Shown here: positions 7,450-60,610 of the stretch, in pieces | How the letters are laid out: each line of letters starts with the position of its first letter | Numbering within the stretch: the first letter of the stretch is position 1 | Assembly: GCA_963971425.1 (NCBI GenBank) | Contig: OZ020515.1 | Span: forward strand, 6,898,291-6,962,290 | Source: Bryoerythrophyllum caledonicum | Taxonomy: Eukaryota > Streptophyta > Bryopsida > Pottiales > Pottiaceae | Reading direction: 5' to 3' | DNA length: 64,000 nt | Made by a program: the position numbers and the translations under genes | Notes under the pieces: generated by a model | Told to the model about the DNA's origin: nothing | Database searches by the model: none | Seen by the model: only the letters and a program-made list of their open reading frames with translations

Positions 7450-7453
7450 TTAA

Positions 7454-8233
7454 CCCCTAAAGGACCAAGTGTCCTCTAGAGGGACGATTTTGATTTTGGG
7501 TAGGTTCCAAAAATTTGAAAAAAATCTTTTTTTTTAAAATTTCTATTCTAGATTGTCCCTAATGAGAGCTTTGTTGAGGTAGTTTTTTGTATTTTGGATT
7601 CATGGTTTGAAAGTTAGTACCACTCAAAGTTAGAAATGGAGACTCCGCGCACCTCCAAAATTTTGCTAGAAGTTTCTATTGACATTAAGATTTTTCATAC
7701 ATATAGAAAATATTACCTTCTTTGAATATGTCAAAAAAATTATTGTCTTTAGTGTAGATAACATTTTAACTCAAGTCAAACATTTTTACACATTTTGGGC
7801 AAGCAAGAAAAAACTTTATCTTTTCTACGTAAAACCTAGAGGTCTTCATATTTTTCACATTTTTAATTTTTTTCATCAACAATATGTGGTGAACTAATAT
7901 CGTGTGTAGGGATCTAATATCATGCTTACCACAATGGTAAAAGATTTAGACCTTGTATAGTGCAAAAATTTGATACCAAGTGAAGCCAGAGTCTGTTGAT
8001 CCACTCAACACATGAAAGAAAATGAACCATTTTCTTGACTTCAAACACTATAATCTATCGATATGTGAAGTCAAAGATTATGAAATTTTGTGAGTATGTT
8101 ACTTAGTAAGTCTTTATTGAGATCCTAAGGTAAAAAATATAAATATATGGTTTTACTTTCTTCCTTAGTCATTGCACTAGAATCAACAATTTTGAAGTGT
8201 TTTTGGTGTGAAATTGGCACGGTCCTTTAGGGG
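7454..8233. mobile_element. TTAA-flanked MITE, family A (780 bp)
   Basis: The termini are CCCCTAAAGGACCA and, inverted, GGTCCTTTAGGGG. Both sides carry TTAA (7450-7453 and 8234-8237), the duplication typical of piggyBac-like elements, although the parent transposase is not in the window. The interior carries text repeated elsewhere here (15096-16023, 37560-38220 and partial inverted copies), such as TTCAAACACTATAATCT and AAGTCTTTATTGAGATCCTA. It is non-coding. Confidence 0.8.
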
Positions 8234-8520
8234 TTAAGGTTGTACAATCGACCCTCTTTGAATGTTACCTCTTTATATGTTATAATTTGATAAATTTTAT
8301 GAAAAGTTTTGCTCCCTAAAAATTAACGCTACTAAGTCTTATATGTTAAGTGTTATAACATTTTCCGCTCCCTCCTTTCTTAATTTTACCTCTATCAGTG
8401 TTAAAGTTGAAATAACATCATTATACATGCAGTACATTGGAGCTAAAAGTTTTGATGCTCCTTTATCTAACAACCTGTATCTTTTGCACTTAACTTGTTT
8501 GCATTTTCAATTAACATGAA

Positions 8521-8891: not shown

Positions 8892-10203
8892 CAATTTTGA
8901 CGTCATGGAGTGAGAAAAGATCTACCTCAAAATTAAATGTGAGTTTCCATGTTTCAATTGTTGAGCCTTGGTCAAGGATTGCAATGGACAAGGGTCGCGA
9001 ATACACTTTGAAGGTGCAACAAGAATTTATTTCTCATCATGAGGGGGTTTTGGCTGTTGGCCACAAGTTTACCAACAAGGCTTTGTGTGAGTGGGCAAAT
9101 GTTAAATTCAATGTCTTAGCTTCTTAGATGACTATTGGTAGACTGTTGAAACGAAAGGGATTGATTACTACGGTCATTGGTGTGGGCAACTTGGATGATT
9201 TGAAGCGCATGAGAAAGGTTAAAGGTTTAGAAGTGGAGGCAGCTACTTTCACTTGGTTCACTAAAATGCAAGAGAAGGGGGTTTTTTAATGTGATAATCT
9301 TGGGATAATTGCGCCAAAGAGATTACATGCATAGTTATGGAGGAATGCAAGTGAGAAGAAGCTTCAATTTTCAAATGGCTAGGTAGAGAAGTTCAAGAAT
9401 AGGTTTCTAATTAAAGGTTATGTTGGCCAAGGAGAAGATGCATCAACGGATAGTTTAGAAGCGGTTTTGAAGAAAAAAGAGGATATTAAGGCCAAATCAT
9501 CTCAGTACCACATTGGTGATGTTTTTAACATGGATGAGACTAGTCTCTTTTACAAATTAGAACCAAATTGTGCTTTAGCTACAAAACAAATATTTGGGAA
9601 GAAGAAGCAAAAAGAGCGTATTACGATGGCACTTATTGTAAATGGTGATGGAAGCATTTGCCTTCCTCCATTGATTATAAATCAGTATCTAAAGCCTCGA
9701 GCTTTCATCGTAAGGCACATTTAGAAGCCGAAGAATTTGAGGGTAATCTAGGCTGCAAATAAGAAAGCATGGATGACATGAAATTTTGAGAAGTTCATAT
9801 TAGATTTTGAGAGGAGGATGGTGATGGTAGGGAAAGAGAAAGTACTCTTACTTGATGATTTTTCTGGACATCAAGTGCCAAATGTAGATTCACAATTGAG
9901 GGTGACGCAATTATTATTCTGACCTCCAAATACCACCAGTCGCTTTCAACCTATGGATGCAGGCATTATTGCATTATTCAAAATCCATTACCGGAAGTTG
10001 GTGATTCAGCATTAAATAGATTGTATCATGGTAGAGAAAGATTTTGCAATTGATGTATATCAAGCTCTTTAGATCATGATTGAGAGAGCATGGCGTAGTG
10101 GAGTTATTATATCAACAATTCAGAATTGTTGGAGGCATACATGTATTCTTCCATGTCTTGTTGAAAATGAAAGGGATGAAACTAGGCGTTTGATGACGTT
10201 GTA
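8892..10203 (+). pseudogene. pogo/Tigger-like transposase, inactivated
   Basis: Translation in one frame gives a recognisable pogo/Tigger (DDE_1) transposase. The N-terminal CENP-B-type DNA-binding region includes HKFTNKALCEWANVKFNVLAS. It is followed by the catalytic blocks FNMDETSLFYKLEPN (first D), VLLLDDFSGHQ (second D) and PPNTTSRFQPMDAGII (third D). About ten in-frame stops interrupt it, most of them TAG (after LAS, HA, NG, HI, RVI and QAL). This is consistent with C-to-T decay of CAG and TGG codons. An acidic tail appears to continue to 10380 and resume at 24221-24290 on the far side of the inserted element (ECDIDEVTVDDDDMVEEV). It is a transposase relic without activity. The upstream start is not determined. 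Confidence 0.85.
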
Positions 10204-10380
10204 GCTTTACTTTGTTATTAGCATACATTGTTATCATCTTACATTAAGGAAAATGACACTATGGAGGCTCATGAGTTTATCAATTACGAGCTGAAGTTTG
10301 ATTTTGAATGAGCTTTGATTTGAATATTGAACCTACTGATGATGATATGATAATTTTGTTATCCTCTAAATATCAAGAAT

Positions 10381-10431
10381 AACACACAATTAAGCAATTA
10401 TGCACTTGGCCATATAAAAGTGCACTTGGGT
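10381..10431 (+). repeat. Left terminal inverted repeat of the 13.84-kb element
   Basis: AACACACAATTAAGCAATTA and onward to GCACTTGGCC, then ATATAA and GTGCACTTGG. Short copies of TGCACTTGG occur twice here and once near the right end, giving a possible subterminal binding pattern. Confidence 0.85.
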
Positions 10432-10953
10432 ACAATGGCGGCCATTGCAAACAAAAGTGGCAAAATTGCAAAAAAAAAAAAAAAAATCAAAGAAAAAAAA
10501 TGATTTCCAAAGAAATAAAATTGAGCTTCTACAACAAGATTACGTACAATCATGGTTGTTAATATTGGAAGCAATTTTTTGGCATTTTCAACTAATTTGT
10601 GGTGGCCCCTTGTTAATATTAGATAAATATATATTTAATATAGTTTCACAATATTTCAAAGATAGATTTGAAGGATTGTAGTATACAAACAGGCGTAATC
10701 ACAGAAAAACATAGTTTATGCAAGGGTTGGCAGTTGATTAAAAGATATTCAACATAGTATATAATGCATACAATGGTGGAAACTAAATATAGATTCTTCT
10801 ACAAATGGACTTAGCACCAATAGTAAAATTACCTTTACTCTATAGGATTAATGACATAACGTCTTACATCACCCTTAGAATATACTACTCTTACACAAAC
10901 ACTATATATCAATTATCATACACAACTAGTATACTCTCATAAAGGCACACTAT

Positions 10954-13900
10954 CTACTCCACAAAATTTAGGGCTGCTTGCAAACGGTCGTCATCGATAG
11001 CTTCGGTTTGCATTGCAATATATTGTAGGATGTGAGCCTTTGCCGATTGAAGAATGCGAATCCTACTTTCAACCTGCACTCCAAATACATTGCGCTTTCT
11101 GCACCTACTAGCCCCGGACATGGTTCTTTCTGGTGTATCTACCCATGAAAAAATGCATGCATCTTTCTCTACCCAACTATGGCTCTCCCCAGATGGCTCC
11201 CAGAATGAATCCATGCAATTTGCATACCGTTGTGTAGAAGACCCATGTCCATCAGCAACCCCCCTTTGGATGATGGGCCAATACCAACAAACCTTAATCT
11301 TAAGTCTCCATTGGTTTTTTCCTTCCTCAATCACTTTTCCCACATAGAATGGTACACCGCCTTCTATCTCAGCTCGATCAACACTCAAGGCTACAAACTG
11401 TCCACAACGGATATCAGATTGTGGATTAAATGGTGGAAATGGGTCGTGATTACCTTCATACATTGCTCCTTCTTCGGCGCGTTCCTCAACATAGTTGCGC
11501 TCTGTTTGTTGTGCCCTACGCACTGCTTGATTAGAGGGTCTTCCTCTACGAGGACCAAAGTATCCTCGAGACTCGGCATTTGGAAGCATGGCCACTACCT
11601 GCTCTACGACATTTACCTCGCGATTTTCTTCACTTCCACCATCCATTACATCCAAAGATGCGCTCCCTGTAGGTCCAGCGTTGGAGAACTCTGCAGGCCA
11701 AAACGGTGAGGTACGATGCTCATTGCTACGATCTTTGTGTGGAAATTGAGCTAAATAGAGTTTCAATCTTTCAGCCTCTACTTTTGCCTCACGATTCTTG
11801 TCCCCATGCTGCAACCTTTGAATGCACATTTTTTTATATGCAATGAAGTCATCCAACGCCTTCAACTCCCGTTCGTCCGCTGCAAATACTTCCGCAAACG
11901 ATGGTCGTTCATCCCTATTTGGCAACGACCTCAAAGTTTTCGTCCCTGCCTCAGGTCCCCATGGATCCTTGCAATAATGCTTGTGCTATACTCGAACCTC
12001 ACGAGTCCCTTCTCGATTGTCCATATAGAATCGCATGTGGTGCGGAAATGTTATGCCCACCAATGAATCCTGACCTGTCAGTAAGTGAGGAGTTATGAAC
12101 AATTTCCAATCCCATACATTCTCTAGCACCCGGGCGCTAACAAATGCTTCCGTAGGAGATGTTCCTCGTTCTATAAGAGTAATCATTTCCTTCAACGAGT
12201 CCACGTCCGACCTCTTCAACGTATTTGATATACAACTAAAACGTTGATCAATATCTTCGTGTGTATGGCCCACTATAAGAAAAGATAGTTCCACCTCCTG
12301 AAAAAACCCCAATCCCACCAATGTAGCACATAGAGCAAACATGTAAATGTTTTTGTTCTCTCGCGTGCAGTTGTCGGCCTGAATTCGCAGTGTCGGTGGC
12401 AAAAAGCCCCTCCTCCGCAGCACATCTCCAATCACATACAACAATGTACTCACGACTTGGTTGCTATCGTGTTTGTGGTGAGCCCCAAACCACACGTCGC
12501 AATATAAACCAATCCCATGTACAAGAGCACCACACAGATGGATCTTCACAAACCGGTGTTCAATGTTCTTCACAGTCTGACGCATCCTCGGTACCATGGT
12601 CGTATTTTGGTCCATGCCATCCACTATGATGCACATGTACAACTCAGGGCTAATATAACACGACCTCTTGAATATCCAATAATGCCTACGTTCTTCCATC
12701 TGGTTGCGCAGATGCAATATAAACAACTCCTTTATCTTTATCCTTGCATCCGCATCGGTGGTTCCCTCCATGGCACATTTATACTCCCAACAATGATAAC
12801 ACTTTGAAAATCTCGAGAATGGAGGTACCTGAACGTGGGGGTACTTGATGCGCCACATCCTCCGGAACGAACTCATAGAAATTGTTTCTCCATTACAAAT
12901 TCTCTTGACCTCCTCGTTCACGTAATTGAATACATCAAATTTGGCTGTATTCATAGGAAGGAGAATGAGAGGCACCACTTCGTTGTCACTCTTACGGCGA
13001 ATACAACGATGAGGTTGAGGACTACCAGCTTCATCGACAAACGATTTAAAGTAAACGTCTGCTGCAGACATTCTGGTACTCTCTCTTATCGGATCTGAAA
13101 GGGTATTGCCGTGAATCGATGTCACTCTTCCATATATTAGACAGTCCTTCTTCAATTGCTTAAAGCGCCTCTGTGAATATCCAACCCCAAGAGCGTAGCA
13201 AGAATTGCAAACTTCTTTCCCATCTAACTTTGTTACAAATATGTCTCGACGAGTTCCTTCCGTCCTTGTGTAAAAAGAAACCAGCATCTGTCTCATCCAC
13301 GTACTTCGAACTGAAAACTCACTACCCCATGCATTATATCGCATGTCCAATAGATACCTCGCTGGAACGTCCCTCAAACAATTGCGTTTGCATCCTCCTT
13401 GTGCCATTGTAATTTGCACGCTTCTAAGGGATACCTTAGATGGTGCAGCTTCTGTCAATGATGGCTCCCTTGAATCTCTCCTTCTCCTATTTTGCATAGA
13501 ATATGGACGACGTGCTGGTCTAACAGAAGCAAATCCATCTACATGGGGCAAATCTTGGATATTTGAGGGAGTAGATTGGGAAAACGGCGAATTTTCATCT
13601 ATGGCATTTGAAGCATGACTACTGTGTCGAGACCTCTGGGTGGATCCTGGTGTGTTGATGAACTCAGGAAAATCAAATTCTTGGGCCATCACTTCTGCAG
13701 GCGCTATCTGTGATCCAATGTCACCATGGACACCTGTGATATTAGGTTCTACAGCCACTACACGTAGCAAAGATCGATGCCAACGAATGATCAAGCCCAC
13801 ACACATGCCAAGGCGTTCTCCTACAATCTCTCCGGTCCAATGCAATGCATCATCTACCCTAGTGATACGCACCGCCACCTCGAACGGGAACAACTTCGAT

Positions 13901-14145
13901 CCATTCAATTCCATGCCGCTTTTGAATGCATGCTCCCTATTTGCTAAGCCCACCACATCTCCTCTTTCAGGAAGCAATTCTACTGCCCTTCCCAATTCAG
14001 ATGTCATGACCTCAACAGATCTTTGTTGAATTTGCCTTGAACGTGCTGCTCGTACTAATCGGGCCCCCACAGAGCTGTTGGAAACCATATTATCCCTTTG
14101 GATGTGTGGCCGTATCAAAGGAGTCTGAATTGTACAACTCTCCAT
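10954..14145 (-). CDS. DDE/RNase-H-like transposase (DUF7869-type), one in-frame stop
   Basis: About 1,063 codons from ATG at 14145-14143, interrupted only by TAG at 11988-11986. The frame is unchanged across the stop, and the residues after it (HKHYCKDPWGPEAGT) read as normal continuation. Residues about 250-330 hold a Cys-rich N-terminal module (CKRNCL, then EVCNSCYALGVGYSQRRFK). The core has three acidic blocks in RNase-H-fold order: CIIVDGMDQN (D near 507), RIQADNCTRENKN (D near 589) and VGHTHEDIDQRFS (E near 629). I associate the last two motifs with the domain catalogued as DUF7869, found in plants and invertebrates. The C-terminal 320 residues include a basic patch (GPRRGRPSNQAVRRAQQ) and a BAH-like or SH3-like stretch (CGQFVALSVDRAEIEGGVPFYVGKV). 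By position and motifs it is the likely transposase of the element. An intron that removes the TAG is not apparent, so either the stop is a recent nonsense change or it is read through. Confidence 0.75.
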
Positions 14146-14149
14146 TATC

Positions 14150-15091
14150 ACTATTGAAAAAAAAACATTATGGTTGCACATTAGTCAAAATACATGTACA
14201 AATTGTTAGCCTCTAAAGCACCATCCATCTGAAAGAAGATATGTTTCTGATCACATATTTAATGTTCATTTTATAATGATGATATTGAACCGTCTGATAA
14301 AATTCTTTGAAATGAAAAAATTTAACATTTGTAGAGCGTCAACTTCTTGCAAAGTGTCTTTGAATATGCTACACCTCTTCTCCATCCTTAAACATTGGTG
14401 TACAAGAACTATTATCATTCTTGACATAATGGTAATGAATCTAGACCCTATGTAACACAAACTTTTGTAACCAAGTAGATTGAAATTCCAGTAATCGACT
14501 CAATCTAGGGGAAAAATGAACCAATGTTGTCTACTATAAAAACTATAAATTTTCAATCCGTGCGGTCAATTCTAAGAAACTCTGTGAATATGTTCCTTTA
14601 GCCCTAAAAGCCCGTGACCATTTAACACCAAAAAACACTTCAAAATTATTGATTATAGTGTAATGGGTAAGGTAGGAAGTTAAACCCTATATTTATCCTT
14701 TTGACCGTAGGATCTCCATCAAAACTTACAAAGTAACATACTCAGAAAAATTCATATACTTTGACCACACGGATTGAAGGATTCTATTGTCTAAAGTCAA
14801 GAAAATGGTTGATTTTGTTCCCTGCGTAGAGTGAATCAACAGACTTGACTTCACTTGGTATAAAAATTTTGCACTACAGAAGCTCTAAATCTTTTAAACC
14901 ATCGTGTTGAGCATGATGTTAGTTCCGAATACACCAATTTCTAGAGGTAGATAAGGGGTGTAGCATATTCAAAACAAGTGCCACATATTCTAAAGCATAG
15001 TTCACAACGCACGTGGTTTTCTCGCTTATAAATTTTGTATCAATTGCATAGTCCCTTTTGACATACAATGTGGTTTTGGTCCCCATTTGAC
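14150..15091. repeat. Family A MITE fragments, two orientations
   Basis: Positions about 14380-14600 carry family A text in plus orientation (GGTGTACAAGAAC, CAATCCGTGCGGTCAA). Positions about 14605-15060 carry it inverted (ACCACACGGATTGAAGGATT, AAGGGGTGTAGCATATTC). The two lie back to back immediately before the complete copy at 15096. They lie upstream of the minus-strand transposase gene and may contribute to its promoter region. No gene is seen. Confidence 0.6.
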
Positions 15092-15095
15092 TTAA

Positions 15096-16023
15096 TCCCT
15101 AAAGGACCAAACGTCCCCCCAGGGTCATTTTGGATTTTGGGCAAATACCTATAATTTGAATAAAAATCCTTTTTAATTGATTTTTTCTTTCAAGATAGGA
15201 TCTAATAAGAGCTTCGTGGAGATATTTATTTATATATCTTTGGATTTGTGGTTTGAAAGTTAGTACCACTTAAAGCCAAAAGTGGGACTTCGGGCACCTC
15301 CAAAATTTTTTACAACAGTTTCTATTGACATTGAGATTTTTCACACATATAAAGAATATTTCCTTATTTAAAAAATTTCAAAATAAAATCTTGTCTTTAG
15401 TGTAAAAAGGCATTTTATTCCAAGTCAAACATTTTCACACATTGTCGGGCAACGGGAAAAAAACTTCATCTTTTCTACATAAAACCTAGAGATCTTCATA
15501 TTTTTCGCTTTTTATTTTTTCAACAACATGTGGTGAAAACCTTCTTATTGACCGTTTGGATTATCATTTTAATACATTCGTAGTTCACAAAAAAATAAAA
15601 TGTGAAATGGCAATTTTTGAACCTCCACTCCTTGCACACTTGTTTAGAATATGCTACACCCCTTTTTTACCTCTAAAAATTGTTGTGTTGGGAAATAACA
15701 TCATGCTTAAGACAATGGTAAAAGATTTAGGCCTTGTACTATACTGTACAATGCAAAAATTTGATACAAAATGAAGTCAAAGTCAGCTGATCTACTCAAC
15801 GCAGGGATAAAAATGAACCATTGTTTTGACTTTAAACACTAAAATCTATCAATCCGTGCGGTGGATTGCAACCTAAATTTGATGGCATGTTTATATGGAA
15901 GTCTATTTTAAGATCTTATGGATGAAAATTAAAAATTCACATGAAAATGTGATTCATATATCTTTTTGACAGTGGCAGTTTTGGACTAGTTTTAGAGCAA
16001 TATAGGTCGTGGTCCTTTAGGGG
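15096..16023. mobile_element. TTAA-flanked MITE, family A (928 bp)
   Basis: The termini are TCCCTAAAGGACCA and, inverted, GGTCCTTTAGGGG. TTAA lies at 15092-15095 and 16024-16027. The interior matches the 7454-8233 element through most of its length (for example TTGACATTGAGATTTTTCACA and CACCTCCAAAATTTT). It is inserted in the spacer between the two divergent genes of the large transposon. Confidence 0.8.
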
Positions 16024-16027
16024 TTAA

Positions 16028-16864
16028 CCCCTAAAGTGGAAAGCTCTCAAAAGTGCCAAAACCCCTCAAAACTGCCCTCTTTCAATGTAAGGTGAAAAAT
16101 TTTAACTTTTGACAAATTTTTGAGTATGTAACCGTAAGATCTAGTACTTAGTACATGTACATACATACCGAATCTTAGATTCAAATTCCTCACCATTTCT
16201 GAGATCATAATGTTCAAAGTTGAAAAAAAAGATTTTTACCTTGTTGTAGAATGGAAAACTAATGTTTTGGGGGCCAAAAAAACCATTTTTGAAAGGAAAT
16301 TTGACATGAGGCTCTTCAAATTCTTGTTCCTATGTGAGTAAGGAATATGTCCATATAATTTTTACCCTCATAGGACCTATAAAACCTAAAGAAATGCTTA
16401 ATTTTTCACATGGAGGTATGCTGAAATACAAATACAAATGCCCATTTTCAACAATTAAAAAGGCATGTAAAAAATTATCTGATTGAAAATCCAAACGGTG
16501 AGATCATGCTTTACTACCTCTTTTACATGTACGAAAAACAAAATTCGAAAAAAAATAAAATCTCAATTTCTGGTGAATTTTTGAAGTTACTGCGATCTAA
16601 TTGATTTTGGGCAGATTTTGAGAATAAATGAGCATTTACCGCAGTTTTGGGCAGATTTCAGCATGCCCCAACAGTGTTTTCAAACTTCGACCGTGAATAT
16701 CTCCTAAAGTACGAGGAATTTTGAAGCATGAATGGTGTCATTTTAAAGGTATGGGAAAACTCTACAACCTTCCAGAAGTTGAACTTTATACGATCTAAAT
16801 TTAGTACCCGAGAGCCTGACCAGAGTTGGATCGACCACATTCAAGTCGATTTCGACTTTAGGGG
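16028..16864. mobile_element. TTAA-flanked MITE, family B (837 bp)
   Basis: The left end is CCCCTAAAGTGGAAAG and the inverted right end is CCCCTAAAGTCGAAAT. TTAA lies at 16024-16027 (shared with the neighbouring MITE) and 16865-16868. The interior is unlike family A. It shares only the terminal CCCCTAAAG and the target preference, so the two families probably used the same transposase. Non-coding. Confidence 0.75.
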
Positions 16865-17499
16865 TTAAGAGAACGATTTTGGGTCACCTTAGCTTACCTC
16901 TAAGATTTTGTAAGCAAGCAACCAAGTCCAAAACTAACATATATCCACATTCCTTAACCTCTTGGTTTTTTTTTTTAGTTTTTAGTTTGGGGGGGCGCTT
17001 ACCTTAATGTAATACGGTACTCTCGAGACCTGTGGAAGCAATTCACTCCAGTACAGTACTGCATATGCAAGGAAAAATGGAACTTATCTCGTAGTTACAA
17101 CTCAACAAGATTACTAGAAATGCGACCCTAGATTGGAGGGCCTACAAACGCAAGCACTGGAGGTAAGATTCAAACACCACGAACTCCCGAACAATGCTAC
17201 AACAGCGTTCATCGCACCTGCGCATTCCAGAGCATTCGCTAGCATTCAGCACAAGTCCATAGAACATCTTCACATGCTAGAGTTATTTATAAAGTCACCT
17301 GAAGTGTGAATAATAGACTTCTGCTTCTGATAACTCTGTTGATAAGAGACTTCTAATTAATCTGTTGATGAGCTGAAGTTTTTTGTCTACGAATATAAGC
17401 AACAAAAGAGGAGGGAAGAGGGTTCACCTTCTTCAGAAGGGACACTCGCAAGGGCAGCAAAACTTGCTCGAGTGGGGTCTGCTGCCAAGGACTCCACCT

Positions 17500-18600
17500 T
17501 GATTGCTTCATTCCAGCGTACTGACTAGCCGCCGAACCTGTAACCCTAGCCGCCGACCGAATACCCTAAACCGCCGACCCTAATCAGGAGACCGACCATG
17601 GGTGTGCGCGCGCACACCCTCCAATAGCTCGACGGCATCAACAACGTTGTTGGAGAACCCTCACGTCGCACAAGGCTCGAATGCGCACATGTCGCATAAG
17701 GCTCGCAGGCTACTGTTGGAGAACTCGACGCGCACAAGGCTGCTGGAGGGTGTGAGCGCGCGTGAGACTGTCTACGCTCGTGAGGCTCTCTGCGCGCTGC
17801 TGGAGCCTGTCTGTGTGCTGGTGGAGGCTGTCTATGCGTGTCTGCGCGCGTGAGGAGGCTGGCTGCGCGCGTCTGCGCACGTAAGGAGGCTGGCTGCGCG
17901 CGTTAGGAGGAAGGCTGCGCGCGTCTGCGCGCGTGAAGAGGTTGGCTGCGCGCGTGAGGAGGTTGGCTCTGCGCGCGTGAGGAGGTTGGCTCTGCGCGTC
18001 TGCGCGCGTGAGGAGGTTGGCTGCGCGCTTGAGAAGGCTGTCTGCGCGTGTCTTCGGCAAGCACTCTCCACCCACAGGTCGTTGCTCTCGCTTCGCCACC
18101 AACACTGCACATTTGACACACCGTGGTAAATCTCCCGACCCCCCTCTCACTCCCCGACCCACCCTCCTCTCGCTGACCCTCCCTCCTCTCTCTCGTTGAC
18201 CCTCCCTCGTCTCCCTCGCAGACCCTCCTTCCTCCCTCCCAGACCCTCCTTCCTCTCTCTCCGAGACCCTCCCTCCTCTCCCTCCGAGACCCTCCCTCCA
18301 GTCCCTCCCAGATCCTCCCTCCGAGACCCTCACCGATCCATCACCGAAAACCCTCCCGCACCGAAAACCCTCCTCTCCCTGCTGGACTAAAAAAAAAACC
18401 TCCCTCACAGAAAATCCTCACCTCCTCACACAGAAAACCCTCCCTTCTCACACAGCCCACATAGCCTCTCTCTCCCTCACGTAAAACCCTATCTCCTCTC
18501 ACCCTAAATCAAATCCGAGCTCTCACACGGACCCTCTCCTTCACGGCCGCAGGGGTGTGCCGGCAGGGGTGTGCACGCGCACACCCCATGTAAGACTAGC
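17500..18600. repeat. GC-rich minisatellite and pyrimidine tract between the divergent genes
   Basis: Positions 17826-18050 contain repeated units of about 20-30 bp built on GGCTGCGCGCGTGAGGAGG. Positions 18125-18500 are a C/T-rich tract of CTCCGAGACCCTCCCTCC-type repeats. The block is bracketed by palindromes that are inverted copies of each other: CATGGGTGTGCGCGCGCACA at 17597-17616 (extending to 17620) and its near complement at 18565-18590. The bracketed 994 bp could itself be an inserted element, although no target duplication is visible. Base composition is very unlike the AT-rich surroundings. Open frames here are low-complexity by-products. Confidence 0.65.
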
Positions 18601-18609
18601 AAACCCTAA

Positions 18610-18862
18610 ACCCTGTTGATAACCGGTGCTGATACTCGGGTTGTATCAATACCCTGCTACTGTCTTGGCTGATACCCAGTACAGTGGTTGATACCCAATA
18701 CCACTTGAACAACAATGTCTTGATTGATATCCAATACTACTTCAACAACAATGTCTTGGTTGATACCCAATACACTGACTCATACCCATTACCTTGGTTG
18801 ATATTTGATACACTGGTTGATACCCAATACCCTGATTGATACCCGATACCAGGGTATGAAAG
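18610..18862. repeat. Short GATACCCAATACC tandem repeats
   Basis: About ten imperfect copies of TTGATACCCAATACCNTGG spaced at 18-40 bp. Non-coding. It lies in the spacer of the large transposon. Confidence 0.7.
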
Positions 18863-18879
18863 AATTTCTAAAGACATAC

Positions 18880-19650
18880 TCGTTAAAATTGCTCGTTTTA
18901 GTGCAATGAATAAAGTAGTAAAAATATAAAAAAACAAATTGTAGTTTAAACTGTAGGATCTCAATTATGACTTATTAAGATACTCAAAAAAATTCATAAA
19001 TTTTGACCGCACGGATTGAAAGATTATAGTGTTTGAAGTAGAGGAAAGGGTTCATTTTCTTCACTGCATTTACTAAATCAGCAGACTTTGACATCAGTTG
19101 ATGTCCAATTTTTGCGCTTTAAAAGGTCTCAATTAATTTTCATAATGTTAAGCATGATGTTTATTCCTTACACTCCAATTTTTGGACGTAGCGGAGGACT
19201 ATAGCATGTTCAAAAACATTGTGCAATGAGTGCAGGTTCAATAATTCACAATTCATGTTATATTTTTTTGTGACCTTTATATTGTATTAATTAAGAATCC
19301 AAATGGTCAATAAGAAGCTTAACATCACATAATGCCGTAGGAAAAATCAAAAGTGAATCATACAAAGATCTCAAAGTTTTATGTGGAAAGGTAGAAGATG
19401 TTTTGGTACCGTGGCTGAAAATGTGTGACAATGTGCGAAAATAATTGACTTAGATTAGTATGCTATTTAACCAAAGAACTAACAACATGCTTAACACGAT
19501 GGTATTGGATTTATATCTTGTGTAGCGCGAAAGTTTTTAGAGGTGGACAAAAGGTGTAGCATATTCAATAAAATTGTGCAATGAGTGGAGGTTCAAAAAT
19601 TCTTATTCCATACTAATAGTGACTATCTTTTTGTACTGATATATAGGTTT
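18880..19650. repeat. Family A MITE relics next to the plus-strand gene
   Basis: Inverted family A text is recognisable at about 18950-19330 (GACCGCACGGATTGAAAGAT, GTAGCATATTC, AATGGTCAATAAGAAG) and partly again at about 19490-19645 (AAAAGGTGTAGCATATTC). The repeat stops roughly 40 bp before the first credible codons of the plus-strand gene, so the insertions may have replaced its original promoter or first exon. Confidence 0.55.
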
Positions 19651-19689
19651 TTTGAGCGTAGCGTTATAGCACCACCAAAAATTGACAGA

Positions 19690-22600
19690 ATGTGGGAGAG
19701 CCACGGCTGGTGGATCGCGGAAGTGGATGAGTCGAGCGCCTTCTTGTGGGTGACGGATTATCCTTTTGAGCTAGGGAAGCGTACATCGGTGTTGGGGAAG
19801 AGTTTTGGCACAAACGAGGCAATAACTCTTCGACGTGATGATATGGTTTACGTAACTTGCGCAGTGGGTCCAGGTCAATCGAAGGTGAAGACTTCTCTTT
19901 CGAAGAAGTTGCTTCTTGCACCTGTCCCTTTGAATCTTCTTCAAAATCCAGGTGAAGTGAAGTTTCTCAAATCATTGCAGACGTTTTGATTGAACACCTC
20001 TCTTGCGGTACGTACTGCTAGACACAATAACGTCTTAGCCTGTTTAGCGTTATCACCGGAGATGGTGCTAAAGGCTAAGAAGATTATGGAGGAACATATT
20101 AGATATGAGGCATTACGGGAGAGGGACCCATCATGTGCGACAACTCGAGCTCCACCAGCTGAACCAGAAGAAACAGAAGTGTATCGAATTCTTGCTGAGC
20201 CATTGCAATTGGATTGGCGACCAATGGAAGGAGGGAGTGGAAGTCGAGCCCAACACCCCAGCACAACTTCTGAGGTACAAACATTATCCAATCCCCGGTT
20301 ACCGAGAAGGCGTCCTACGAAGAGGCCAAGACGTGTTGAGAGTGATGTAGCTTCTGGTTCAACAGAAGGCCCCTCAAGTTTGGATCCAAGCGGGAGGAGG
20401 TTGATTGGGAGAAGTATAAGATCGAGTGGCAGGGTTTCTAGGTCGGCGCTCAGGACGTCTGATGGTCATCGTAGGGCATCTACATCTACACCGGGAGATT
20501 TAGCTTATTTGTCAGCCATGGCGCCGGAGGAAGAAACAATTCACAACCTATCAGATAGTGTACGAGAGGATTTTGAAGACAATGCGGAGATACCACAGGA
20601 TGTTCCAACTTCAATGTATTTAAAAGCACCAGTGCCTACAGCAGAGGAGATTGCGAAAGGATCAGTGTGGGGGAATTTTGTGTTTAAGGCACACATAGAC
20701 CGCATTGTCTCTGTGGAGAATCCGGAAACAAACCACCGGGTTTTATCACAGAAGAGGGTCAGAGAAGTATTTAACCGCTTAAGAGACCCAGAAGCCGCGA
20801 CTCGGGTGAGTAGATTGGTACTTCGACCAATCAGATACATCGTGCATACTACCTCCAATGATGGTGTCGTTGAGAAGCAGGAATTGCCATTTCCGTTGGT
20901 AGGAACCGCACGAGAGTTTGAGCGCATGTTCATTACACACGGGAGTGCTTCTGCACAGGGTGCCATGGGATCTCAGTATTCTTGGCTTCAAGATCATATC
21001 ATTTGGGAACCGGTGGATGGCCAACACATAGTAGCAGCTTGTAAGTTTGCACAGCAGCAGTGGAAAGATGGTACTATGCCTTTAAATGAGTACCTCGACA
21101 CGTTCGAGCGGCGGGAGGCCTCTTTTGTGGTGTATGATGATCGTCGCTTTTACATCGAGAAGTCTGCGCGGATCAACGTGGCGGAGTTCCAGAGACATTC
21201 ATCTTCTACCATGGAGGAGGATTTGAGGAAGATCCGTCAGATTTGGGATCTATACGAGAGGCCTGATAGCACACTACGTGCGGACGATGCGCGCAGGGCT
21301 GTTGCTTTGGTGAGTGCGGCAAGTGCAGTGCATAAGTTGCCCAAGGGGGATGGAGTTGTCACGGTGAAGAGGTTGGCCAAAAACATGGAGGATCTGACCA
21401 ATCATGCATGGAATCCGAGCAATGACTGCTTCGAAGCTATCATTCAAGTATGCAAGGACTACGAAGATGGCATTCTCTTTTACAGCAAGGAGGAAGGGGA
21501 CAAGTGGAAGGACATGGCGAGGAAGAAAGAGCTGGATCCAAATGTGGACGTACGACCAACAAGGAAGGAGATGACCCAGAATTGGTTGAGGCCGTTAGGT
21601 AGGGTTCCGAATACATATTATCTACGGTTGGCAAAGTCTGTTGCAGCGAAGCCGGTGGGGGAGGATGGAGTAAGACCACGTCAAGCATATTACTTCGACG
21701 GTGTAAAAGACAAGAATCCACATCCTCGTACGATTGCCGGTGTGGTTGACCGATATTCGAGACGAGAAGCTGTGATGAATTCCATCCGTTGGTTGATGGT
21801 GGAGAACAAGGAAAGTACACCTGATTCCATGGAGGAGTTCTTTCGTATCCGTGTAGGAAAGTATTTTCCGAGGAGTAACGCACAACTTGATACGTTTGGG
21901 AAGCTTTTGAATGCTACCACGAAAAAAACTTGGAGTGCTCCTGTGCGGGGGAAGGTGTCTAAACTGGAAGACATAGGCTACCTTATCCCCCCTTCCATCA
22001 GGTTCCATTATGGTGACATTGTAGCAGGGGGCCGTGGATACATTGGACTATCCGTGGATGTGGGAGGACATGCTACTGCTAATTGGGAATGGCAGATGGA
22101 AGTCAAGAGGCCAGGCCAGAGCGACACAGAGAATCTTCTTCCGGTTCGGTGTAGGAGAGGGTTATTCCGCACCAACTACATAGAGTTGGGGAAACCATGT
22201 TTGTGGGTGATTGATTGTCGACGTGGCGGTGGGAGGCATGGAGATGGTCATTGGGGAGACGCCCAGTTATCTGCAGCTTTTGCACAGCTGACATTATGGA
22301 TGGCAAATATTGAACGATGGAACGTCATCTTCTTGTTACCAGCGGCCGTGTATGCCAACGAAGAGTTTTTCACGAAGGTGAAGCTTCCAGAGGGATGTAC
22401 TATGCGACGTGGATGTTGGGCATTTGATCCGAACTCGGTTAATCCCTATGCTCTCGATTTTACAGAGAATGGGCGTCTAGAGCAAGTGGTACAACCGATT
22501 GGCGATGTTGTGATTTGTATGCAACACCCTGTGGGTACATCTCCTGGCCCGAACTATGTTTCTGGGGACGTTCCACTTCCACTTGTTTTCTTGGATCACT

Positions 22601-23631
22601 GGAGTGAGGCACGCCAACCCTCTGAAGTTGATTCACTTGAGAGATCTCCATCAGAGCTAGCAAGACTAGTGGGCTCATACCTTCCCCGTGGTTGGGGTTT
22701 AGTGGCGTGTAACATATCTACGGCCATTTCCACGATCCTTGAAGGAGATTTCCAGGGATCTGAGGTTTTCATCATTGACGATTGTACAGACACAGTTTCA
22801 TTTCTGTACAATGAGTTGTCCGACAATTTTCAAGGACAACTGTTGGTCAACACTGGTGGAACAAGTACTGGTTGCAACATCGTACCTGGGACTGAAGAGG
22901 CGGTTGGTGGAATGAGCAATGAAGACGACAATGAGGATGGAGGTGGTTTAAATGAGAGATTGCCACGTTCAGGTACCACTGAAGATTTCTCATCTCGTAG
23001 TCGTTCAGACGCCGATGAAGATGGAGTGAACCAGTCTCCTCCAAGAGACAGGGTTCCATCAACGCAACGGGCGGTGGGAGATACTTCAGGGCTGACATCT
23101 GCAACACCTACAGAGAGGTTGCAAGATACCGGTGTAGTAGATGTTAGATTGGCGGCACGGACAGGAGGGGGGCGTACATTTGATGGTCGTAGGCTGGAGA
23201 TAGAGGAAGTAGAATTCGATTCTTGTGAATTTTTTTCGGTGCAGAGGAGGATTCCACAGCCTTTGATGCCTTCTCAATCAGAGCCAGTATTGGAGACACA
23301 AGAGACGTTCGGAGGTACTCAGAGTGATATCGGACCAGGTTTGCATTCCGTTCCAAGATCTAGCGTATCGGAGGACATCATTGCATTTCAGGGGGCCTTC
23401 TCGTCAGAGCGAGAGATGTCCTTCAATCCTGAAGATGGCTTTTTCTACAATGATGATAGGGTAAGGCATACGCGGGAGGGTGTACCTGGCAATTACCGAT
23501 TTGTTGAGTGTGCGTCCATTGGCATCGAAGATGTGGGAGATCGTCCAGTGCAGGATCATGAACTGTCCGCTATGGTAGGTAGCGCCATTGGACACGTGGA
23601 GGGAGTCGTTCCGCCAGAAGATGAGCTGTGA
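19690..23631 (+). CDS. ParB-like/DNA-methyltransferase-like fusion protein of the transposon
   Basis: A large protein of about 1,284 residues. I start it at ATG 19690 (MWESHGWW). An intron at 19952-20038 (CAG|GTGAAG to TTAG, 87 nt) is inferred because it removes the only in-frame stop (TGA at 19987) and keeps the frame. Residues about 110-280 are a basic, serine-rich linker with a KRPRR nuclear-signal-like patch. Residues about 320-430 resemble a ParB/Srx-type module: IDRIVSVENPETNHRVLS leads to EPVDGQHIVAACKFA, with D414-G-Q-H417 in the place of DGxHR. The C-terminal half has the order of a beta-class N6/N4 methyltransferase: PCLWVIDCRRGGG (D813, where DPPY is expected), a strand-rich VIFLLP, then GWGLVACNISTAIS (about 973-986, motif-I-like) and VFIIDDCTDTVSF. 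The last 270 residues are acidic and low in complexity. Motifs are diverged, so catalysis is uncertain. The pseudogene at 2740-6405 shares this architecture. It may accompany transposition or alter DNA modification; that is inference. Confidence 0.65.
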
Positions 23632-24175
23632 GTCGTGGAGCTATATACTATTGTAGAGTATGCACGCAGTTTAGGTGGCAAGTACGTTAGTATAATGTAG
23701 TTTGAGATGTGTCTATCGTTCGGTGGGTGGTATATATTTATATATTGGATGGTCCATATGATATGTTTGATTTTAGAATTCCTCAGTGATAGTGTGGAAT
23801 TGCTTGATTATGTATGTTTTTGCATTATAAATTACAGTGAGCTACTTTACACTGTCTTAGGAAATTGCATATATATTTTTGTATCTCTTACACATTGTAT
23901 TTCTAGTGCAGTACTCTAAAATCCTATAACACATTTATAATCTCTTTGGGCACATGATCATAATTTTGTAGCAGGATTTGGAAACTAGATTAGAAATCAT
24001 ATATTTTCTTAAAAAAGGTAGTGAATGTAAAAAATATATTATTGATATTAACATGAAGATGCCAATGTATGACACGACAAACACCCAAAAAAAATTGACG
24101 AAAAACATACTAAACTTTTGCCAAATTTTGATTTAAAAAAAAGTTATGAGCAGATAACTTGCGGCTTTCTACCAG

Positions 24176-24220
24176 GAACCAGTGCACTTGGCTAAGTGCA
24201 TAATTGCTTAATTGCGTGTT
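24176..24220 (-). repeat. Right terminal inverted repeat of the 13.84-kb element
   Basis: Read on the minus strand it starts AACACGCAATTAAGCAATTA and continues TGCACTTAGCCAAGTGCACT. It differs from the left end at two of the first 31 positions and lacks the 6-bp ATATAA spacer. Confidence 0.85.
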
Positions 24221-24449
24221 GAATGTGATATAGATGAGGTTACGGTAGATGATGACGATATGGTAGAAGAAGTTATAGGATTTAATGATGTTATAAAATT
24301 TTTTTTCAAGTCTTATAAATGTTATTTTTTATATAAGTTATAATTTTTTTTGGAGGTCTTACATTGTTATTTTTTATACGTGTTGTGTTCGATAAGTGTT
24401 CTAATTTTTTCCACTCCCAACCATTATCATTTAAAGAGGGTTGATTGTA

Positions 24450-37559: not shown

Positions 37560-38222
37560 TCCTTTCATTTTGTCAAAAAACAATTCTTGCCGTTAGTGAA
37601 AAATAGCATAATAACTCAAGTCAAACATTTCCACACATTGTCACACATTTCTGGACAAGGTACCAACAAACCTTCTTCTTTTCCACATAAAATGTTGGGA
37701 TCTTCATATTTTTTACTTTTTGTTTTTTCTAAAACAATATGTGGTGTTAACCTTCTTATTGACCCTTTGGATTATCATTCTAAAACATATCAAGTTCACA
37801 TACAAATAAAACGTGAATTGGCAATTTTTGAACCTCTACTACTTGCACAATTTCATTGAAAATGCTACACCCCTTGTCTACCCCTAAAAATTGGTGTACA
37901 AGGAACTAATATCATGCTTGACATGATGGTAATGAATTTAGACCTTGGGTAGTGCAAACATTTGACTCCAAGTGAAGTGAAAGTTTGTTCAACCACTCAA
38001 CGCAGGGAAGAAAATGAAGTCTTTCCTATGCTTCAAACACTATAATCTTTCAATCCGTGCGGTCAAAATTTAGGAAATTGAAAGAGTATGTTACTTGATA
38101 AGTCTTTATTGAGATCCTACAATTAAAATTTGAAAAAAAGTTTTGGTTTCCTTCCTTACTCGTTGCACTAGAATGTCTTGAAGTGTTTTCTAGCGAATTT
38201 GTCAAAGAAATTTAGGGGTTAG
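37560..38222. repeat. Family A MITE, 5'-truncated copy
   Basis: Text from about 37560 matches the interior of the 7454-8233 MITE (AACTCAAGTCAAACATTT, CAATCCGTGCGGTCAAAATT, AAGTCTTTATTGAGATCCTA). It ends in TTTAGGGGTTAG, a one-base variant of the family terminus plus TTAA. The left terminus is not found. It lies about 225 bp upstream of the BAHD start and so may be part of that gene's upstream region. Confidence 0.65.
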
Positions 38223-56400: not shown

Positions 56401-57277
56401 GGAGTCAAAAAGGGACGCCCTTGTAAGCAAATGACTTAGAATGAGGTTTTAGAACATCCTCGGCCAGCACGTCTTCGAGGACGCTCTTTTCTAGTTCTTC
56501 GAGTTATGGTGAATCAGGTATTGAGTGACTTTATCGACTGCCTCATATAAAAACATCTTTAGCACATCATGACGCATGAACCTGATCATGGACATCTCTT
56601 GGAATTGAAGCGTAATAATAACACACTTCTATACATGTTATTGCAGTTTGTGTAAAACATTACAATTTTCCTACCTCTAAACTACATCTAAGACTATAGA
56701 ACATGTGTAGGAGCCGCAGTTGGTCTAACCTCTTACCACTAATACCGAAGTACTTTACAAAACACGAGGTGAATCTACAAGTTCTCTCGATTGATCTAGT
56801 TTCGACTCTCTAACGAATAATCTGCTCTAATTCCCGGAAACAGTAGTCCAAGTTTTCATTATTGTTAGTCCAAGTACTTATCCAATCAGGTTGAATTTAT
56901 CTGGGATCAACATGGATGGTGATGGTGAAGGAGGTCACTGGTAACAGAGCTTAAATTCTCTGTTGAAGATGCTGATGCCCGACCTCGTTCCTTACCATGC
57001 CATGTCAACTCCGGAATGCTCTTCAATGGCAGCTCCCATTGAGGCAGTCTGGCTTCGTAAGGTTCTTTGATCTAACAAAGCTGGTGAATATTTTTTTGAA
57101 AGTTAGAAGCTTTACGAGATAAACAATTGATAAATTGTAGAAATGTGTGACGTAGCAAGTGACCTTGCCAGGATAGGAGGATCGTAGGAGAAGTGAGAAG
57201 TGACCTTGCATTTCAAGATAGGAAGATCCTACCATCCCCAATGATTGGTAGTAGTAGAAAAAGTGAGAAAAATAATG
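56401..57277. other. Intergenic DNA left of a Tc1 element
   Basis: Positions 57160-57240 carry AAGTGACCTTGC and GGATCGTAGGA-type repeats like those at 60225-60640 and 62685-62725. The region may therefore belong to the element that carries the DUF7869-type pseudogene, split by the Tc1 insertion. No gene is seen. Confidence 0.4.
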
Positions 57278-57279
57278 TA

Positions 57280-60058
57280 CAATAGGGTGACATTCAAATT
57301 GGCCGTTTAGTAGTTCCAGGGATAGTGTCCTACATTGCTGCCAACTTTGACACCCTCCCCAAAGCTGAGAAATTGTTATTTTACCATGAAAATTTGGGAA
57401 CACCATCATCTTTATGTTGAAAACATGCATACCAAATTTCAAGTCCAGGAGACTTATACAAAAAAACTTATGTAAGATCTACCAACATGGGATAGCTCTG
57501 AGAAAAGTGTCACAGCTGCCAACTTTGACACCCTCCCAAGAATTGAGGAAATTTTTTTGCCCATGAAATTTTTGGAGCAAAAACATTTTTATGTTGTTTG
57601 CATGTGTGGAAAATTTCAAGTCCGAAAGACCCATACAAAAAATAATATTCCAAATCTACCAACATGTGTAGTTTTGAGAAACAAAGGGGAAAACCATTTT
57701 ACTACTTCCAACTTTGACGCCCTCCTTAGGATTGAGTTTTTGTTGATACATAATGAAATTTTTGGCACAAGATCATCTCTACGCTGGTAACATGTGGGAT
57801 AAATTTCAAAGCCAAAAGACATACATAAAAAAAGTTATTCCATATCTATCAACATGTGTAACTATGATAAACAATTTGAAGGTCATATTGAAAATGTCAA
57901 AATATCTTTGACACCTCATGCTTTTTCATTGAACTCAATCATGTGAGTAAGCCACCAAACATAAATGCTTCTCAAAAAGATCAATAACATCTAAATGAAG
58001 AAGTGAAGAGGTGTTCCATGCAGAAGAATCCACTTGGCCATAAAGTGTGCATTAGACACATGACAAATTTTTTCTTCTAAATATCTATTGAACACTATGT
58101 AAAGGGAATGGTGTGTGTGATTTGTGATAGACTGAATGTTGAGACAATCCTCAAAACAGAGAGTGTTGTATTGTAGGATGCATGACTGTTGATTCACATT
58201 GGGCATATATGATGAGTGATTAAGAGCAAAACGATTTTTCATGTATGCATATGGGCTTGTGTTTTGGCTACCCTTCTCTCTCCTCTCTGCTCTAGCACCT
58301 TGGCTCCCTTCTCTCCCCCATACTCTGCTCCAGCCCTGTTCTCCTTCCTCTGCCAATTGTCACGTGTCAATCCTGAAACCCCCTTTGCTCTGCTCTAGCC
58401 CCTTGGCCCCCTTCTCTCCCCCTTGTTCTGCTCTAACCCCAACTCTACTGTTGTAGCTAGCATCACGCACTCTATAAGTTTATGATGGCAAATTCAGATG
58501 AAATTCATGCTCGCATCATAGGTTTGAGTGAGGGAGGATTTACAGGAGTTCAAATTGCAGCTACTATTGGAGTTCCTATTAGAACAGTTACAAGGTTAGT
58601 AAAAACATTTAGAGAAGATGGAACCTACAAGCGCAAACCTTGCGGTGGAAGTCACGCTAAAAAGCTTAGTGATAGAGATGTTCGTAGTATTGTGCATTAC
58701 TCAAAAATTCATCGTTGCTCTTCACTCTCAGAGATTACCAATGCATGTCCTACTCAAGTGTGTAGACGTACTATTCAAAGGGTCTTACATAAAAATGGCA
58801 TTTTTAGTCGAATTGCAGTCAAAAAAACTTTTTTGACACCTCGTCACATGTCTCAACGATTAGCTTTTGCTCAGAAGTACCGTGGATGGAGTGCAAAAGA
58901 GTGGGAGCGTGTTGTTTGGACAGATGAATCTACTTTTGAAATTGGAAAAAATTCTCGGCAAATTCATGTTTGGAGAAGTGCATACGAGCGTTATTCATCA
59001 AGTTGTCTAGCTCCTACTTTTAAAAGTGGAGGGACTTCTTTAATGATTTGGGGCGCATTTGCCGGAGGACAAAAGTCAGAACTTGTCTTTATGCCTAAAG
59101 GTCAACGTTCTGCTAAGGATTTTATAGAAGTGGTTTACGATGCCAAATTGATTCATTTCATGGGTCAAATTCCACAATGAGTGCTTATGGAAGATGGGGC
59201 ACCCGTCCATAGGAGCAAAATATGTGAAGAATGGAGACAAAGCCACCTTCTCGAAAAGCTCAACTGGCCTGCAAACTCTCCCGATCTCAATCCAATCGAG
59301 AACATTTGGAGGATGTTAAAAGATGTTGTGCAACATGGCAAACAATGCCCTAGAAGCTTAGATGTGTTGAAGGTAGTTCTTGAAAGAGAGTGGAAATTAG
59401 TCAATGGTACAAAGCTCCTTCAACTTTGTCATTCTATGCCCTCTAGGTTACTAGCAGTGATTGACGCTAAGAAGAGGACATACACGTTGGTAGATATGGA
59501 ATAACTTTTTTGTGTACATCTTTTGGCTTTGAAATTTATCTCACATGGTACGAGCGTAGAGGTGATCTTGTGCCAAAAATTTCACTATGTATCAACAAAA
59601 ATTCAATCCTAAGGAGGGCGTCAAAGTTGGAAGTAGTAAAATGGTTTTCCCCTTTGTTTCTCAAAACTACACATGTTGGTAGATTTGGAATATTATTTTT
59701 TGTATGGGTCTTTCGGACTTGAAATTTTCCACACATGCAAACAACATAAAAATGTTTTTGCTCCAAAAATTTCATGGGCAAAAAAATTTCCTCAATTCTT
59801 GGGAGGGTGTCAAAGTTGGCAGCTGTGACACTTTTCTCAGAGCTATCCCATGTTGGTAGATCTTACATAAGTTTTTTTGTATAAGTCTCCTGGACTTGAA
59901 ATTTGGTATGCATGTTTTCAACATAAAGATGATGGTGTTCCCAAATTTTCATGGTAAAATAACAATTTCTCAGCTTTGGGGAGGGTGTCAAAGTTGGCAG
60001 CAGTGTAGGACACTATCCCTGGAACTACTAAACGGCCAATTTGAATGTCACCCTATTG
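57280..60058 (+). mobile_element. Tc1/mariner element with about 580-bp inverted repeats (2,779 bp)
   Basis: The ends are CAATAGGGTGACATTC and its complement, with TA on both sides (57278-57279 and 60059-60060). The inverted repeats run from 57280 to about 57859 and from about 59482 to 60058, and are nearly identical. Each contains three tandem diverged units of about 180-190 bp beginning near CCAACTTTGACACCCTCC (57338, 57516 and 57704 on the left). The right repeat starts inside the last seven codons of the transposase. Confidence 0.92.
58482..59504 (+). pseudogene. Tc1-like DD34E transposase with a single nonsense codon
   Basis: 340 codons from ATG 58482 (MMANSDEIHARIIGL), interrupted only by TGA at 59178-59180; the frame then resumes as VLMEDGAPVH. 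The N-terminal bipartite helix-turn-helix is visible (GFTGVQIAATIGVPIRTVTR). The catalytic triad is complete: WTDESTF (D148), MEDGAPVH (D238) and PDLNPIENIW (E273), which is DD34E. The single stop falls just before the second catalytic aspartate, so this copy is inactive but young. Its last codons (TLVDME and stop) lie in the right inverted repeat. It is related to the element at 28653-30676. Confidence 0.92.
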
Positions 60059-60610
60059 TACATATTGTATGTATAGTGAGAAACAAACGTAGCATTTATG
60101 CGGTTCCACTAGAAACATAAGTGTTTGCAGAGGGCTAATACATTGTAAACAAATTATAATTTATGACAAGGCCTAGGTTTATGTATAAAAGTTACCAAAC
60201 ATGTGAGCATCTTACAAAGGCAGCTAGAAGAGGCAGGACCGTAGGATTTTGCTATCTTGTGGGAAGAGTTTTTAAAATTACCAGATAAGAGTAATGTATA
60301 AAGTGCATCAAACGGTAGGAAAGTAACATAGTATATAGGCGGTTAAGGGTAGAAACAGAAGTATCGGAAGAGGGCTGATACATTGTCGACAATTAATGAG
60401 GACGCCAAATTGTATGCACTATAATTACAATAAATGTAACAAATATATCATAGACAACGAAAAACATTAGGATTATAGGATTGTATAATCTCGTTGGAAG
60501 AGTTCAAAAAAAAAACCAGAGATGATAAAATCGTGCCATCTTGCTAGAAAACTTTTACAAAATCATAGGTTGGCCGTGTTGTGGAAACTCATAGCCGGGT
60601 TGCGAGGAGA
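60059..60610. repeat. Subterminal-type repeats beside the DUF7869-like relic
   Basis: Two copies of GCGGTT...AGAAACA...AGAGGGCTGATACATTGT-like text lie at about 60095-60150 and 60340-60395. Motifs like GTAGGATTTTGCTATCTTGT occur at about 60241, 60475, 60530 and 60615. They look like subterminal repeats of the element carrying the neighbouring pseudogene. No gene is seen. Confidence 0.45.

Follow-up and report, generated by a model that had tools for sequence, protein, structure and literature searches.

The question raised by this stretch of moss DNA is what kind of mobile element it carries, and what the second of the two large genes in that element is for. The stretch, called the window here, comprises 64,000 nucleotides of Bryoerythrophyllum caledonicum (contig OZ020515.1 of assembly GCA_963971425.1, positions 6,898,291 to 6,962,290). 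The segment at 10381-24220 is a cut-and-paste DNA transposon inserted in a DDE_1 relic, which our analysis confirms. We consider it quite probable that it represents a young, high-copy Sola1-like family, in which a DUF7869 protein (gene 1) acts as a DDD-type transposase and is accompanied by a divergently oriented accessory gene (gene 2).

The boundaries originally drawn for the element, with inverted termini matching at 29/31 and GAAT on both sides, have stood. At all seven other end loci fetched (an eighth locus was the window itself), the boundary seen in the window was reached within ~3 bp. Within the window, a 27-bp core of the terminal inverted repeat (TIR), searched with up to three mismatches, matches only the two element ends (0.00 matches expected). 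The proposed insertion into a pogo-like frame was equally well founded. When the flanks are joined, with the element removed in silico, one open frame is regained, and the left flank matches Pfam DDE_1 with E 3.4e-18 (stops typed as X). In a search of the moss genome with the joined flanks, 40 of 103 candidates were scored, two of which were the window's own halves. All 38 other listed matches span the junction without an element, at 71-84% identity, and empty paralogues of the target therefore exist.

The same ends recur across the genome (437 Mb in 894 contigs searched). A 32-bp TIR pattern, with up to three mismatches allowed, gave 1,886 matches (931 + 955) versus none for the reversed control, and a 42-mer specific to the right end gave 726 (349 + 377) versus none for its control. 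When 40 of the 981 first-look candidates for the left 256 bp of the element were scored, 39 places outside the window turned out to be 94-98% identical. Ten copies were fetched from among the best-matching left-end places, and hence form a non-random sample. Both ends were seen in seven of them, at a length of 12.9-13.9 kb, while three did not show both in the stretch fetched. With the window included, 23 of 29 end pairs are flanked by a 4-bp duplication: the window, six of the seven two-ended copies, 14 of 18 further pairs chosen from the listing of end matches, and two of three pairs read from the flanks of loci already fetched (L040/L041 and L051/L052 yes, L043/L044 no). Duplications of three or five letters were absent from all 18 further pairs compared. 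Multiple copies with the same ends, 4-bp duplications and empty sites, by which the initial annotation had proposed to check the element, were thus all found.

The duplicated sites share a palindromic context. In a profile of 31 sites, 23 from this family and eight from a sister family described below (sites lacking a duplication were left out), CAC tends to precede and GTG to follow the duplication (CAC-NNNN-GTG), with symmetrised frequencies of 0.42-0.61. Kolobok and other groups duplicate TTAA; none of the 31 duplications reads TTAA, which speaks against these groups.

Two divergent genes with their 3' ends facing the termini had been predicted, and the open reading frames (ORFs) bear this out (Table 1). 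Gene 1 consists of a minus-strand ORF at 14184-11986 (732 aa), followed in frame by 11985-10954 (343 aa) past a single TAG at 11986-11988; two codons are gapped in comparison to the reference copy. Elsewhere in the genome, 28 of the 61 matches listed (of 3,721 candidates) have a frame of 1,076-1,077 aa whose matched part is free of stops. The assignment of gene 1 to DUF7869, originally made from motifs, is confirmed by the domain match. PF25273 matches the moss genome at least 150 times; 14 control genomes yielded no match. In an alignment of 20 genome loci picked from the PF25273 list and the two window copies, all 22 rows share D573, D604, E630 and D646 (numbered as in the window ORF); identity to the window domain is just 58-77% at nine of the 20 loci. 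The gene 1 protein would be expected to adopt an RNase H fold, to use DDD catalysis and to bind the TIRs. A search of gene 1 against PHROGs returned nothing significant; its end gave a sub-threshold value (0.073) with a PHROG of unknown function. No close relatives of either the gene 1 or the gene 2 protein were found in viral contigs. Two phage-looking contigs that matched the degenerate DNA pattern for GHT[HK]ED[IVM]D did so by chance and were set aside, and two 351-base probes from other DUF7869 lineages were uninformative. The second DUF7869 copy in the window, at 61549-62201 on the minus strand, is a degraded fragment of another lineage that has kept the HTH..ID and DN..KN motifs (31% identity over 149 aligned domain residues, 42% over the best 62 aa).

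Gene 2 is a plus-strand ORF at 19990-23631 (1,213 aa), which extends upstream in frame across one stop, at 19987-19989, to 19585; one codon is gapped relative to the reference copy. A frame of 1,344-1,348 aa, uninterrupted by stops over the match, occurs in 15 of the 38 matches listed. The suggestion that the element is autonomous, or was so recently, is in line with the family and with the open genes in other copies, but does not hold for the window copy, which carries stops and is not intact. Counting the window, at least 19 of the 38 listed gene 2 loci lie 6.4-14.8 kb from a divergently oriented gene 1 (the gene 1 list used for this count held the 61 listed matches and ten PF25273 loci, and misses are not absences). 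Both genes diverge from the central region, and its 0.3-0.6 kb module is also present directly upstream of each of them. The CGCG-type minisatellite was not seen in eight of the ten fetched copies, seven of which have a run of 200 N mid-element.

Both genes are under purifying selection, as judged by the ratio of nonsynonymous to synonymous changes (dN/dS, Nei-Gojobori counts between element copies). Across 55 pairs of 11 gene 1 sequences, the median is 0.33; for gene 2, with eight sequences in 28 pairs and the three copies lacking a right end left out, it is 0.37. The subfamily of the window copy, C4 and C6 was also compared, in pooled form, with other copies (C10, C12a, C15, C3, C11 and C2b for gene 1; C15, C10, C12a and C3 for gene 2; C12b and C7 left out). 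The ratio was 0.17 for DUF7869 and 0.27-0.39 for the remaining segments of gene 1. In gene 2, it was 0.21 in a ParB-like stretch, 0.26 in a methyltransferase-like stretch, 0.37 at the N-terminus, 0.41 in the middle and 0.70 at the C-terminus. Low ratios in the two genes mean that both proteins mattered while the family spread. Among the recent copies, the ratios are closer to decay after insertion: 0.89 (gene 1) and 0.92 (gene 2) for the window against its two closest copies, pooled, and 0.62 and 0.81 for C6 against C4. Single pairs of the window with its closest copies range from 0.57 to 2.04, with few changes.

Table 1. Features of the element and its insertion site, in window coordinates.
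Feature	Position	Strand	Basis
Complete, probably Sola1-like DNA transposon, 13,840 bp	10381..24220		Ends and duplication; other copies end within ~3 bp of the same bases
Left TIR, AACACACAATTAAGCAATTATGCACTTGGCC	10381..10411	+	End comparison, genome matches
Right TIR, reverse complement of the left one at 29/31	24190..24220	-	End comparison, genome matches
Target-site duplication GAAT, left	10377..10380		Read in sequence
Target-site duplication GAAT, right	24221..24224		Read in sequence
Pogo-like/DDE_1 relic, left part (insertion target); left limit approximate	8984..10380	+	Rejoined frame, paralogues, DDE_1 match
Pogo-like/DDE_1 relic, right part; frame rejoins on joining flanks	24225..24322	+	Rejoined frame, paralogues
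Gene 1, putative transposase	10954..14145	-	ATG at 14145 as candidate start (Met 14 of frame); earlier ATG is Met 2
DUF7869 (PF25273) domain of gene 1	12010..12555	-	E 6.5e-50; 22-row alignment
Gene 2, large second protein	19585..23631	+	Frame taken from stop to stop; start codon not settled
ParB-like stretch of gene 2	20626..21192	+	Motif reading only (PVDGQH); dN/dS 0.21
Methyltransferase-like stretch of gene 2	21985..22857	+	By motifs alone, the catalytic ones seemingly degraded; dN/dS 0.26
Central region, differing among subfamilies	14323..19611		Inverted and direct copies of 0.3-0.6 kb module
Minisatellite arrays	17739..18850		CGCG-type array in 3/11 sequences (window copy, C4, C6)

A sister lineage (family 2) has a DUF7869 domain that is 73% identical and a TIR of its own, AACATGGAATTCGCTAAATATGCACTTGGYCA, with 136 genome matches versus none for the control. 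The TIRs of the two families have the core TATGCACTTGG in common, and a 4-bp duplication was found at eight of ten family 2 end pairs. With both the TIR and DUF7869 altered in family 2, ends and transposase thus diverge together. At L220:3862, a divergent left end of the first family is nested in a family 2 element; the sibling copy L200 is uninterrupted there.

In view of these features, the moss element is probably a Sola1 element, assigned by anatomy, duplication and partner rather than by transposase sequence, and it is likely to work like one. According to the available excerpts of PMC10741241, Sola elements have a DDD transposase, make 4-bp duplications and occur in moss; their TIRs measure 11 to 1,124 bp, and their size is mostly 2-9 kb, with some above 15 kb. 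The 4-bp duplication, the 31-bp TIR (29/31) and the size of 13.8 kb (copies of 12.9-13.9 kb) agree with this description. The accessible part of PMC9033089 lists a Physcomitrella Sola1, which is like the present element in its plant host and in the 4-bp duplications stated for Sola, a likeness by description. The closest parallel to the gene pair is Sola1-1_Ec32 from Ectocarpus, which, in the excerpt of PMC12477816, is 21.5 kb long and encodes a 1,104-aa ParB and DNA-methyltransferase protein opposite to the transposase strand. Both elements are large, and in both the accessory gene lies on the other strand from the transposase and has a product of comparable size. The likeness is again one of description, and there are differences: 21.5 kb and 1,104 aa versus 13.8 kb and 1,348 aa, a brown alga versus a plant host, and ParB and methyltransferase parts that are reported for the Sola1-1_Ec32 protein and lack significant support here. 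Taken together, the descriptions of Sola and Sola1-1_Ec32 run counter to the view of the initial annotation that no described superfamily was known with such a combination. Sola2 elements of slime moulds, as far as the available text of PMC3627910 goes, also combine 4-bp duplications with a passenger beside the transposase, but the passenger is Fanzor1, the TIRs are 12-21 bp long and the duplications are A/T-rich. Zisupton, for which an 8-bp duplication is given in the accessible part of PMC12730594, does not fit the 4-bp duplications found here. PMC9247546, where the single match is the word Solar, and PMC10045372 contain nothing on Sola, and the literature searched offered no nearer parallel.

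For a Sola1-like family, a plausible sequence of events can be outlined. Gene 1 would encode the DDD-type transposase with the DUF7869 core, which would bind the ~31-bp TIRs and excise the element. By joining it to cuts staggered by 4 bp at CAC-NNNN-GTG-like sites, the transposase would generate the 4-bp duplication. Gene 2 would be transcribed divergently from the shared repeat-rich central region. We infer the whole function of its product: as an accessory protein, it would most likely attach to the DNA of the element through the ParB-like part, and may once have methylated that DNA, or may still do so. Its likely use would be in protecting the element against silencing or in helping it to transpose.

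Several results weigh against this picture or against parts of it. The duplication failed at six of the 29 end pairs of the first family and at two of the ten of family 2, some of which may be ends wrongly paired. The presumed equivalence of DUF7869 and the Sola1 transposase relies on described features. Gene 2 was not detected in four family 2 stretches from three copies (L198, L200, L220, L221), which in combination, with no single copy read through, cover the element apart from about 4-5.6 kb and 7.8-9 kb as counted from its left end. From the family 2 stretches read, gene 2 is probably accessory and dispensable and the pair probably not obligatory; on the same basis, we dropped the idea that gene 2 must accompany the transposase. 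Finally, searches of Pfam, PHROGs, NCBIfam and PDB sequences returned nothing significant for gene 2, and when compared by hhalign with viral-contig ParB-methyltransferases it scored no higher than shuffled sequence.

These last results bear on the nature of gene 2. The ParB/methyltransferase-like partner of the initial annotation is plausible by motif reading, but found no significant match in the libraries or to 76 ParB-methyltransferases. ParB and methyltransferase Pfam domains gave no match up to E 10, the upstream 134 aa of gene 2 matched DUF1846 below threshold (E 0.047), and tblastn of the gene 2 core in phages returned a single match with E 4. The hhalign profile was an alignment of 76 viral-contig ParB-methyltransferases, taken from 80 loci after four that lacked a long DPPY-bearing ORF had been discarded. 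The ParB-like part scored 12.7 against it (40 shuffles: mean 15.8, top 25.3). The methyltransferase-like part scored 24.0 (40 shuffles: mean 17.5, top 24.9; passed by two of 40), and its alignment fell on the profile's ParB part. With scores in the range of shuffled sequence, we therefore do not claim the ParB-methyltransferase reading as shown.

It is a serious possibility, though the lesser one, that gene 2 is no ParB/methyltransferase at all, and encodes an unrelated DNA-binding or anti-silencing factor, as in plant VANDAL elements. Beyond the lack of significant matches, the motifs speak for this. We take the later part of gene 2 to be a possible methyltransferase of permuted type, and at the places predicted from the motif order of that type, canonical DPPY/W and glycine-rich motifs were not seen in the gene 2 translations, which have DCRR and ACNISTAIST there (ACNISTAIPT for the latter in the C15 copy). 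On the other hand, PVDGQH and the conserved stretch after it resemble ParB by eye, and among the five gene 2 segments, constraint is strongest in the ParB-like and methyltransferase-like stretches. Moreover, size and opposite-strand position match the Sola1 partner as described in the excerpt cited above. The protein encoded by VANDAL elements counters silencing of its own family, and a functional analogy to gene 2 is possible; the transposase superfamily is different, and no sequence relation has been shown. The accessible part of PMC12730594 mentions VANDAL (MuDR) elements that have such an anti-silencing protein. There is also a more specific proposal, which we regard as rather doubtful as a whole. 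Gene 2 might have kept the ParB-like DNA-binding part and lost the catalytic methyltransferase motifs, and its non-enzymatic product might bind the repeat-rich region of the divergent promoters and protect the family from silencing, while the sister family with its related transposase does without it.

It appears unlikely that DUF7869 transposases form an undescribed superfamily apart from Sola1, with 4-bp duplications and a similar partner acquired by convergence or gene exchange. DUF7869 is not named in the literature searched, and the likeness to Sola1 comes from description. Against such a separate group, the 4-bp duplication, the invariant acidic residues, which are compatible with DDD catalysis, and the size all fit Sola1, as do the published excerpts on Sola1 in moss and on the opposite-strand partner in Sola1-1_Ec32. 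A new superfamily is not supported, and we do not open one on the present evidence. A chance or composite origin, with two unrelated genes between fortuitous inverted repeats, could only draw on other inverted repeats of similar quality in the window, and is refuted by ends, gene pairs and 4-bp duplications that recur at many sites, and by the empty sites.

Some further observations concern the surroundings and distribution of the element. A LEA_2 gene adjoins it in the window. Copies of the internal promoter-region module, at 67-87% identity, lie outside the element at 7450-8239 and 37573-38189, perhaps as remnants of related elements. A long inverted repeat at 57275-60063 (1,042 31-base windows on one diagonal at 28/31 or better) contains an ORF, 58461-59180, that is presumably Tc1/mariner-like. 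Among 100 listed exact TIR matches, 40 fall in the first 12.8 Mb of contig C1 (65.2 Mb) and eight in its remaining 52 Mb, and 52 fall in the first 17.9 Mb of contig C2. By these listed matches, the far part of C1 is depleted of the element, and may be a sex chromosome or another special region. The C7 copy is joined to, or interrupted by, a retrotransposon similar to long interspersed nuclear elements (L025:551-5542, plus strand). The 1,664-aa ORF of this retrotransposon has RVT_1 and RNase_H domains with a PCIF1_WW match (E 2.4e-10) between them, a domain known from an RNA cap methyltransferase.

Through these findings, DUF7869 (a domain of unknown function) is linked to a plant transposon system whose ends and target motif are defined and which has many recent copies. 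They also make selection on a transposon accessory protein measurable, with gene 2 conserved about as strongly as the transposase. The sister family, apparently without gene 2, offers a natural comparison for the role of the accessory.

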